Shown: positions 31,063 to 33,547 of the stretch, piece by piece
Numbering within the stretch: the first letter of the stretch is position 1
Layout: every line of letters begins with the position of its first letter
Source of the DNA: Terriglobia bacterium
GTDB taxonomy: Bacteria > Acidobacteriota > Terriglobia > Terriglobales > Acidobacteriaceae
Length of the DNA: 64,000 bases
Direction of reading: 5' to 3'
Assembly: GCA_020072645.1 (NCBI GenBank)
Contig: JAIQGK010000003.1
Location: 620,001-684,000, forward strand
Program-made: the position numbers and the translations under genes
The notes under the pieces: generated by a model
Told to the model about the DNA's origin: nothing
Seen by the model: the letters and a program-made list of their open reading frames with translations, nothing else
Database searches by the model: none

Positions 31063-31590
31063 CTATTTCGTCGGCTCCATCGTCAACGCATCATTAAACC
31101 GATTGAAATAGTTAAACAGCCCGATCGCGGCCAGCAACTCGATAATCTCGCCTTCATCAAAGTGCCGGCGTAGTTCGCCGAAGAACTGATCGTCGACGGT
31201 GTGCGCGTCGCGAGTCACGCGTTCCGCCAGCCGCAGCGCGGCCTTTTCTTTATCCGTGAAATCAGAGCGCTTTTCAAAGTTGGCCAGGTCGTTGATCTGG
31301 TCGTCTGTCCAGCCGTGCCGTCTTGCCAAGACGGTGTGTGACGCCAGTCAATACTCACAACGATTGATCTGCGTCGTCCGGACAATCACCAGCTCTTTTA
31401 GCTTAATGGGAACGGTGCCGGTTTCCATCACGGCCCGGAAGTGCGCCACCATGGTCCGCATGATTTCCGGCCGGTGCGCCACGGTGCGGAACATGTTGGG
31501 AATGTTGCCGCGCACTTTCATGAAGTGGTCGTAAACCTCAGCGACCTCAGGCGAAGCTGCTGCGCGATCAATGCGTGAGATTCTTGGCAT
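31063..31590 (-). CDS. AhpD/carboxymuconolactone-decarboxylase-fold selenoprotein (CxxU)
   Basis: On the minus strand ATG 31590 (AGGG seven bases upstream) opens a 175-aa frame interrupted only by TGA at 31350-31348. Reading UGA as Sec gives Cys78-Glu-Tyr-Sec81-x3-His85, with Glu66 twelve residues before Cys78. This is the same pattern as the AhpD catalytic set (Glu118, Cys130, Cys133, His137) with Sec in place of the second Cys. Sequence on both sides is family-like (KLKELVIVRTTQINRC; then LARRHGWTDDQI). A perfect 7-bp hairpin follows the UGA. Probable peroxidase. It lies 50 bp downstream of the RsbV-like gene, possibly in the same operon. Splitting it into two genes would destroy the active site. 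Confidence 0.88.
31318..31334 (-). promoter_or_regulatory. Candidate bacterial SECIS hairpin in the AhpD-like gene
   Basis: In mRNA sense CCGUCUU (31334-31328), loop GGC (31327-31325), AAGACGG (31324-31318): a perfect 7-bp stem. The stem starts 13 nt after UGA and the loop starts 20 nt after it, with G at the first two loop positions, as expected of SelB-binding bacterial SECIS elements. It lies fully within coding sequence. Confidence 0.75.
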
Positions 31591-31640: not shown

Positions 31641-31988
31641 TTATTTGCCGAAGGCTTTAATTGCTGTCGCTTCGTCGTCTTTGATATCAAAGACGGTATA
31701 GAGCTTGGTGATTTGTAACAGGTCGTGGACTTTCTTAGTGAGGTTGAGCAGCTTCAGTTCGCCGCCTTCACGGCGCACAGCGGTAAACGCGCTCACCAGT
31801 TCGCCGATGCCGGAGCTGTCAATATATGTAACGTCGCCCAGGTTAAGCAGGATTTTTTTGTTGCCTTTGCCGATCAGGTCGCGAATGGTGTCACGCAAAA
31901 CCACGCTGCCCTCACCCAAAGTGATGCGGCCGCTCATATCCACGACTGCGACGCCGTCCACTTGCCGATTGGTTGCTTTCATGCTCAC
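31641..31988 (-). CDS. STAS-domain anti-sigma factor antagonist (RsbV-like)
   Basis: 115 aa STAS protein. VTYIDSSGIGELVSAF (about 54-69) carries the phosphorylatable Ser (Ser58 or Ser59) of RsbV/SpoIIAA proteins. Unphosphorylated, it would bind the adjacent RsbW-like kinase and release a sigma factor or other partner. Its start overlaps the RsbW-like stop by ATGA. Downstream on the same strand is the AhpD-like selenoprotein. Confidence 0.92.
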   Translation of the reverse strand: MSMKATNRQVDGVAVVDMSGRITLGEGSVVLRDTIRDLIGKGNKKILLNLGDVTYIDSSGIGELVSAFTAVRREGGELKLLNLTKKVHDLLQITKLYTVFDIKDDEATAIKAFGK

Positions 31989-32431
31989 TGTGCTTCCTCC
32001 TCCTTGGCATTCGCCGCGTTGCGGCCGGTATGCTTGATAAGTGTTACTTCCGTCCCTGGATTCGTGTTCCGGATCTTTACCTCATCCATGAATGCGCGAA
32101 TCAGAAAAATTCCCCGCCCTGAGCCCTTCATCAGGTTTTCCGGTGCCAGTGGGTCCGGTAGCGATTCCGGGTCCAGACCTTTGCCTTGGTCGGTAATGGT
32201 AATCACCAGCGAATCGCCGGTGGTTTCATACGCAACCACAAACCTTTTTCCCGGATCATAAGCATTGCCGTGCAGCACCGCGTTTACTGCCGCTTCTCGC
32301 ACGGCCATGGCCACCTGATATTGCTCGTCTTCACCCAATCCCGCGCCGGCGGCCACCTCTGTAGCTTTTTGTTCAACCTGATTAACGCTTTCCAAGGTTG
32401 ACTCAAGCGTGTATGAGACCCGGTTTGTCAT
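31985..32431 (-). CDS. Anti-sigma factor serine kinase (RsbW-like HATPase)
   Basis: 148 aa from ATG 32431 (MTNRVSYTLESTLESVNQVE); an earlier in-frame ATG at 32527 adds non-family sequence. GHKL ATP-binding motifs are present: N-box AVREAAVNAVLHGN (about 58-71), G1 TDQGKGLDP (about 94-102), G2 GSGRGIFLIRAF (about 118-129). It would phosphorylate the RsbV-like protein and sequester a partner; no sigma factor gene is adjacent. Middle gene of the phosphatase-kinase-antagonist set. Confidence 0.9.
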   Translation of the reverse strand: MTNRVSYTLESTLESVNQVEQKATEVAAGAGLGEDEQYQVAMAVREAAVNAVLHGNAYDPGKRFVVAYETTGDSLVITITDQGKGLDPESLPDPLAPENLMKGSGRGIFLIRAFMDEVKIRNTNPGTEVTLIKHTGRNAANAKEEEAQ

Positions 32432-32560
32432 GGGACGATTCACTAGGTGTTGTTTTAAAGACGATCCTGAGCGAACGGCTAATAGGGCGAAGCACTTAGT
32501 GTGCCTATGCGGGCAGGGGATTGTCAAACAGTAGACTGCCGGTTAATCGTTTTGTGCAGC

Positions 32561-33547
32561 TTACGCGGTCGGCGCGAACTGCAGCACCATCAGCGCCTGA
32601 TCGTCCAACCGAGGCGAGCCGGAGCGGAAGTTCAAAACCTCTTTCAGGCATTTATCCACCAGCTCACGCGACGGCATTTGATGGCACGCGCCCAGCAGCT
32701 TTGCCAGCGATGCGCTGCCGAACTCCGCGCCGTCAGGGCTTTCAGACTCTGAAATGCCGTCTGTATAAATGACCAGGCTATCGCCCGGAGCAGTGCGAAG
32801 CGTAGTGCTTGTGAACTTCTGGTCACAGAAAAGCCCAATCGGGACTGTGGCGGCTTCAATCGACGCAACGCCGTGCCCGCCCACATGAAACGGCGCCGGA
32901 TGGCCGCCATTGCATATCTCCACGTTGCCAAACTCATCTGCCCGTCCCACGATCAGAGTGGCATACTGCGTGGGCAGAGTGCTTTCACAGAAAAGCCGGT
33001 TGGCGCGTTCGACCAATTGTTCCAAGGGCAGACCGGTGGGAATCAGCACGCGGAACAGCGCATGCAAGTTTGACATGAGCATGGCCGCTGCCACGCCTTT
33101 GCCGGAAACGTCGCCTACCATGAAATAAAGATCTTTGCCGTGTTGCACCAGGTCACAATAATCGCCGCTGACCTGCCCTGCGGGCTCGTAGTGGTAAGCA
33201 ACTTTCCATCCGGCAGCGCTGAAGTCACGCTTGGGCAACAGCCCAGCCTGGATTCTTGCCGCCAGTAGCAGGTCCTGCTCCAGAGCTCGCTGTTCTGTGG
33301 GATTCAGGCAGTCCAGGCAGAGCTGCGTCAAAGGATCGGCAAACAGGCGTTCCGGCTCTACGGTCCCGGCGCAATGTTCGCAGACGCCGTAACTGCCGTG
33401 GTCCACGCGTTCCAGCGCATGGTCAACCTGCTCCAGCAGGTGCAGAAGGTTAGCGGTCTGGGTTTTGGCCACTGCGGATTCCAGTTTTTGCCGCCGGACC
33501 ATCAACTGGTCGCGCAGCATATGCATGTCTGTAACCTGGATTGCCAT
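32561..33547 (-). CDS. SpoIIE/RsbU-type phosphatase with DksA/TraR zinc finger
   Basis: 328 aa. Helical N-terminus (about 1-50), then a DksA/TraR-type C4 zinc finger YGVCEHCAG...CLDC (Cys56, Cys59, Cys77, Cys80), then a PP2C-like SpoIIE domain: ARIQAGLLPKRDF (about 97-109), GDYCDLV (about 129), VGDVSGKGVAAAMLMSNLHA (about 143-162) with the metal Asp residues, and DDQALMVLQF at the end. It would dephosphorylate the RsbV-like protein encoded 570 bp downstream. The zinc finger replaces the usual PAS, GAF or RsbT-binding sensor and may sense redox, zinc or RNA polymerase. Confidence 0.9.
   Translation of the reverse strand: MAIQVTDMHMLRDQLMVRRQKLESAVAKTQTANLLHLLEQVDHALERVDHGSYGVCEHCAGTVEPERLFADPLTQLCLDCLNPTEQRALEQDLLLAARIQAGLLPKRDFSAAGWKVAYHYEPAGQVSGDYCDLVQHGKDLYFMVGDVSGKGVAAAMLMSNLHALFRVLIPTGLPLEQLVERANRLFCESTLPTQYATLIVGRADEFGNVEICNGGHPAPFHVGGHGVASIEAATVPIGLFCDQKFTSTTLRTAPGDSLVIYTDGISESESPDGAEFGSASLAKLLGACHQMPSRELVDKCLKEVLNFRSGSPRLDDQALMVLQFAPTA

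Follow-up and report, generated by a model that had tools for sequence, protein, structure and literature searches.

Known AhpD-like proteins and selenoproteins

AhpD-like selenoproteins carrying a CxxU motif were described from the Sargasso Sea (PMC1088965) and found again in the GOS survey (PMC2398784). An AhpD-like selenoprotein is also listed in two reviews (PMC9312934 and PMC13188914, the latter under TIGR01926). CxxU AhpD-like selenoproteins are thus already published, and the gene studied here, located in a stretch of 64,000 nucleotides of acidobacterial DNA (hereafter the window), adds a further one. As far as the excerpts of these sources go, the published protein (COG2128/TIGR01926) and that of the window belong to the same fold family and share the CxxU motif with UGA in second position, a SECIS element just downstream and the existence of Cys homologues. 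The published surveys are marine and their excerpts do not name the acidobacterial lineage of the window. For Acidobacteria, a 2006 survey counted 4 selenoproteins in 3 families, with no names given in the excerpt (PMC1794560), and for Occallatibacter riparius deep-Sep reports 3 selenoprotein genes as known (PMC12013277, in excerpt). Among the matches listed by our literature searches, which covered the main text of articles outside subscription journals, no paper deals with this acidobacterial subgroup. Within the same scope, none deals with its spread in the order, with the loss of the partner Cys after Sec loss or with a linkage to RsbW/STAS proteins.

Two proteins of known structure serve as references. 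PA0269 of Pseudomonas aeruginosa (2o4d/2ijc) is 34% identical to the window protein over the aligned part and has the same two-helix Glu/Cys-X-Tyr-Cys/His motif. Unlike the window protein, it has Cys in place of Sec and its N-terminus is about 29 residues shorter. According to the excerpt of its structural description, its peroxide-reducing activity is only weak (PMC3141380). Mycobacterium tuberculosis AhpD (1knc, 1gu9, 1lw1) is a weak fold match (Foldseek E 0.04-0.18, 10-12% identity). Its catalytic helices lie at the opposite end of the chain as compared with the window protein (PMC3141380, in excerpt), His132 is found where the window protein has Tyr80, and Cys where it has Sec.

The joined reading frame and its active site

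The features of the gene are the following.

31063..31590, minus strand: predicted AhpD-like (CMD-fold) selenoprotein CDS, 175 residues and a stop codon, starting with ATG at 31590, translated with TGA as Sec
31348..31350, minus strand: in-frame UGA, putative Sec81 of the motif C78-E-Y-U81, located by translation and by comparison of codon 81 in 153 loci

With the standard code, the frame splits into two ORFs of 94 and 88 amino acids. A sequence-only reading of the window had proposed that the frame is continuous across TGA 31350-31348 and that the joined product reproduces the spacing of the AhpD catalytic set. Both proposals are borne out. From 31590 to 31063 (minus strand) the frame has 175 codons, with one UGA at codon 81 and no second stop. 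Residues E66, C78, U81 and H85 are separated by 12, 3 and 4 positions, as are Glu118, Cys130, Cys133 and His137 of M. tuberculosis AhpD (PMC3141380, in excerpt). The UGA stands for the second Cys of the Cys-x-x-Cys pair. Together with Y80, E66, C78, U81 and H85 correspond in the alignment to the relay of five residues reported for PA0269 (Glu36, Cys48, Tyr50, Cys51 and His55) and for M. tuberculosis AhpD (Glu118, Cys130, His132, Cys133 and His137), as given in the excerpt of PMC3141380.

The joined product was also compared with the CMD/AhpD families, as the same reading had suggested. With Cys placed at residue 81, it matches PF02627 (68.3 bits for a cut-off of 23, E 5.6e-19) and TIGR01926 (88.6 bits for a cut-off of 81.8). 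When a six-frame search reads through the stop, the TIGR01926 score is 80.8, slightly under the 81.8 cut-off. Two equivalog models annotated as (seleno)proteins are not reached: the YciW-related NF053654 gives 83.4 bits for a cut-off of 310, with an alignment spanning residues 1-171 (E 1.6e-23), and the AhpD-related CFYUT model NF041238 gives 39 bits for a cut-off of 175. Because its score is far under the equivalog cut-off, the window protein would belong to a subgroup other than NF053654. The best solved relatives by sequence are AhpD-like proteins, for instance PA0269 (E about 1e-18). An AlphaFold2 model of the joined product, built from 64 aligned rows, shows an all-helical AhpD-like fold with a mean pLDDT of 94.9. 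Its structural matches are the AhpD-like entries 2prr (TM 0.88/0.81), 2o4d (TM 0.74/0.89) and 6k40.

Taken together with the comparative data below, these features indicate that the gene almost certainly encodes one full-length AhpD-like redox enzyme, with the UGA read as Sec at residue 81. The gene model is hereby corrected at a place where standard annotation would be expected to split it, and selenium use is assigned to redox chemistry in soil Acidobacteria. In the mechanism that we propose, SelB bound to a hairpin just downstream would help the ribosome to insert Sec at the UGA, with no stop. Sec81 corresponds in position to Cys133 of M. tuberculosis AhpD, and Cys78 to Cys130. The selenolate of Sec81 would attack either a peroxide or an oxidised thiol on a partner, with Glu66, Tyr80 and His85 acting as a putative proton relay. 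A selenenyl-sulfide with Cys78 would then form, and a cellular thiol system would reduce this bond.

The protein may also be a selenoprotein without being a peroxidase, its substrate then being a disulfide of a partner, or the reaction being another one, as in the debrominase Bmp8. The Bmp8 structures 6ohi and 6ohj match the window protein by sequence and by fold, and the weak peroxide reduction by PA0269 (PMC3141380, in excerpt) goes in the same direction. None of the tested features, however, indicates a halogenated substrate, and the AhpD relay residues are conserved. We consider this alternative a sizeable possibility, though not the one that we favour.

Codon 81 in the relatives

The comparison rests on 153 loci (124 loci and 29 added later), which have 124 distinct products; some genomes occur in two collections. 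The genome of the window, from an environmental acidobacterium, falls in one genus with G106, and the product of G106 is identical to that of locus L055. Loci L161-L164 and L168 belong to duplicates of genomes already included and are excluded from the 153. Orthologues with Cys at residue 81, which the sequence-only reading had proposed to look for, do exist: codon 81 is TGA in 47 loci, TGC in 96 and TGT in 10, and no other codon is found at this position in the 153 loci. Three forms of the pair are observed, CxxU (47 loci), CxxC (31) and TxxC (75). His85 is present in all 153 loci, Tyr80 in 151 and Glu66 in 150, the remaining three having Gln.

A conserved hairpin downstream of the UGA

31318..31334, minus strand: SECIS-like hairpin, 7 bp, apical loop GGC, supported by fold, covariation and conservation in TGA rows

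The perfect 7-bp hairpin that had been noticed at SECIS distance is indeed present. The inverted repeat CCGUCUU-GGC-AAGACGG is found at 31334-31318, 13 nt past the UGA, and 20 nt separate the UGA from the apical loop. The same hairpin can be drawn with 8 bp and a 1-nt loop. The criteria given for bSECIS elements in a figure legend of PMC13188914 are a loop of 3-9 nt with G in the first two places, a stem of 4-16 bp, a loop located 16-37 nt after the UGA and an MFE of at most -7.5 kcal/mol. The loop GGC, the 7-bp stem and the 20-nt distance of the window hairpin all fall within these ranges. The isolated stem, at -7.4 kcal/mol, is marginally short of -7.5, and a 45-nt fold reaches -11.7.

Taken alone, in the window, the hairpin is unremarkable. 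The fold of a 51-nt segment is not more stable than shuffled versions (z = 0.17). When this stretch of the protein was recoded with synonymous codons, a stem of at least 7 bp arose somewhere in the allowed space in 527 of 4000 recodings, and a 7-bp stem at exactly this place in 5 of 20000. No Rfam family matched in the 1.3-kb region searched.

The hairpin stands above chance because it is conserved in the relatives, being kept by 36 of the 38 distinct TGA sequences and by none of the 85 Cys sequences. The 7-bp stem is found at the exact site in 26 of the 28 distinct TGA rows of the family of the window gene (f1) and in all 10 distinct TGA rows of a sister family (f2), and in none of the 23 CxxC and 62 TxxC rows. 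Across the 28 TGA rows of f1, 96.9% of the stem cells are paired, and at 4 of the 7 stem pairs both partners have changed, in 17 cells altogether. None of 500 shuffles matched the paired percentage, the number of double-change cells or the covariation score, and versions slid along the alignment scored far lower. Two measures discriminate less, with shuffles doing as well in 15 of 500 cases for the number of double-change pairs and in 143 of 500 for pair types.

Some TGA genomes depart from the common hairpin. In G090, it has 6 bp only. In G032 (locus L030), the TGA is kept, the common hairpin is absent and the 45 nt from codon 81 fold differently; the sister of this genome, G096, has the common hairpin. 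The divergent fold of G032 is possibly a remodelled SECIS.

Selenocysteine machinery

The Sec machinery, on which the sequence-only reading depended, is present in the genome of the window: SelA (438 bits), SelB (388 bits), SelD and a tRNA-Sec with anticodon TCA (73.9 bits, C11:155122-155214). As a control, SelA, SelB and SelD each passed the cut-offs in 2 of 14 genomes, and tRNA-Sec, whose model is laxer, in 5 of 14. The SelD ORF (1485-2570 in L146, G000:C12:253000-257000) contains a UGA in frame, close to the N-terminal end (KAAGU), because of which SelD of this genome looks like a selenoprotein itself. Selenoprotein forms of SelD are already known (PMC2398784, in excerpt).

The machinery was then related to codon 81 in the 44 genomes having an orthologue, SelA being counted solely where nearly full length. 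SelA and SelB are both found in 21 of the 23 TGA genomes versus 6 of the 21 Cys genomes (Fisher p 2.8e-5, relatedness being ignored). The six Cys genomes are all among the 16 of the CxxC form, with none among the 5 of the TxxC form. In two TGA genomes, G029 and G120, the assembly has only one of SelA and SelB. Short SelA matches of 23-33 bits in the Cys genomes G097 and G039, which pass a lax cut-off, were rejected and taken for other aminotransferase-like proteins.

These data bear on a decoding of the UGA outside the Sec pathway, for example by leaky read-through inserting Trp or Cys. The UGA is followed by C, which makes a weak stop context, and the presence of the machinery in the genome is alone no proof of its use at codon 81. 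However, Cys is the only alternative residue in the relatives, the hairpin goes with TGA and is missing where codon 81 encodes Cys, and TGA tracks SelA/SelB. We therefore regard such a decoding as very improbable and retain Sec insertion at codon 81 as the preferred reading.

A distant group of AhpD-like paralogues (about 30-40% identity) also includes copies with one in-frame TGA. In six genomes, a paralogue lies within about 1 kb of a SelB match on the same contig, with a TGA in four of them (G011 C1, G090 C184, G075 C4 and G078 C48) and without in two (G049 C11 and G010 C107).

Purifying selection before and after the UGA

The segment after the UGA evolves as part of a working protein. For 26 TGA rows, the median dN/dS is 0.17 upstream of the UGA, from 303 usable pairs out of 325, and 0.16 downstream of it, from 263 out of 325, both values being rough because synonymous sites are near saturation. 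L145, which has a frame break, and L141 were left out of this calculation. The sequence-only reading had pointed to decay downstream of the UGA in close relatives as an observation that would count against it. With such low dN/dS values and no further in-frame stop in the aligned TGA copies, decay is not seen in the relatives, with the exception of the metagenome-assembled copy of G078, which is split by a frame break.

We give practically no credence to an ordinary nonsense mutation, by which the gene would be a pseudogene in decay or would yield two truncated proteins, as the standard-code ORFs of 94 and 88 amino acids would have it. An identical UGA occurs in 47 loci of two families, and past it the median dN/dS is about 0.16 with no other in-frame stop in aligned copies. 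The interruption also lies within the catalytic CxxU motif, so that neither half holds both residues of the pair. Sequencing error and decay are both excluded by the presence of this UGA in two families.

History of Sec81 and of its partner

An order-wide search gave a match at E 1e-40 in 53 of 150 genomes, and all 10 matches of the sister family f2 carry TGA and the hairpin. A rooted tree was calculated from 83 rows, the root being set by 9 f2 rows, with residues 78, 81 and 154 omitted. Identical products were entered once, and TxxC rows were limited to 26 in the rooted trees and to 20 in another analysis. L145 (frame break) was left out of the trees, and L141, L138, L178 and L188 (the last three short or cut) were left out of the rooted ones.

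Parsimony on the rooted tree makes Sec the ancestral state and needs no more than two changes to Cys. One falls within the Sec group (G046, G132 and L059), the other before the large Cys group. When all Cys rows were forced together, p-AU was 0.006; with the same constraint on a tree for which a different third column was omitted, and from which the branching order given here was read, it was 0.076. Both tests were made after the tree had been seen. With these values for a single change, two changes from Sec to Cys are favoured, not proven.

Thr replaced Cys at residue 78 twice, in two groups that both lie inside the large Cys group. From the counts of the three forms and from the tree, it follows that Cys or Sec at residue 81 is retained in all loci and that the partner Cys78 is lost only where Sec is absent. 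Cys154 is found in 65 of the 75 TxxC loci, for example L047 and L082; among the loci of the other two forms, just 2 have it. At first, 55 of 56 TxxC loci had it, and the idea was considered that Cys154 replaces Cys78 at every loss. This was rejected, as 10 TxxC loci, which form one group, have Ala154; Cys154 is carried by the other 65, of which the tree includes 16. These 10 loci and the two changes of residue 78 limit the idea to one branch. In that TxxC branch, the newly acquired Cys154 may serve as the resolving residue in place of Cys78. The order thus offers a natural CxxU/CxxC/TxxC series of one enzyme, from which one could learn what Sec adds and what its loss entails.

Gene neighbourhood

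Three genes upstream, on the same strand, belong to the neighbourhood of the window gene.

31641..31988, minus strand: STAS-domain protein (anti-sigma factor antagonist type; PF01740, TIGR00377)
31985..32527, minus strand: RsbW-like anti-sigma kinase (HATPase_c_2; PF13581)
32561..33547, minus strand: SpoIIE-type phosphatase with an N-terminal DksA/TraR zinc finger (PF07228, PF01258)

A survey of neighbours was made without L155-L160 and L165-L167. Of the 37 Sec loci of f1, 35 have an upstream flank of 1200 nt or more; a STAS protein is near 32 of the 37 and RsbW near 31. STAS and RsbW also accompany 7 of the 10 f2 loci, and 6 of these 7 have them upstream and on the gene's own strand. They are near 4 of the 31 CxxC loci (L035, L059, L064 and L068; 21 of the 31 with at least 1200 nt upstream) and near none of 56 TxxC loci (38 with at least 1200 nt upstream). 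Neither is found near 10 additional TxxC loci, two of which have short upstream flanks. The four CxxC loci are members of the small Cys group that lies within the Sec forms, or share its product, so that the linkage with RsbW/STAS tracks the clade and not Sec.

This conserved arrangement suggests a link of the Sec-AhpD protein to partner-switching stress control, and thereby a physiological role. A stronger version is that the protein is a working part of the partner-switching module formed by the SpoIIE-type phosphatase, the RsbW-like kinase and the STAS antagonist, either as a redox output or as a Sec-based redox sensor acting on the switch, and that the large Cys group left the module and in two of its branches gave up the resolving Cys78, which made its enzyme a one-cysteine TxxC form. 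We regard this as unlikely, if conceivable. A point against a strict tie between Sec and the module is that the small nested Cys group retains STAS and RsbW.

A SpoIIE-type phosphatase is near 3 of the 37 Sec loci of f1, many flanks being too short to reveal one. In the window, one protein (32561-33547, minus strand) combines such a phosphatase with a C4 zinc finger of DksA/TraR type at its N-terminus, an arrangement that looked unusual.
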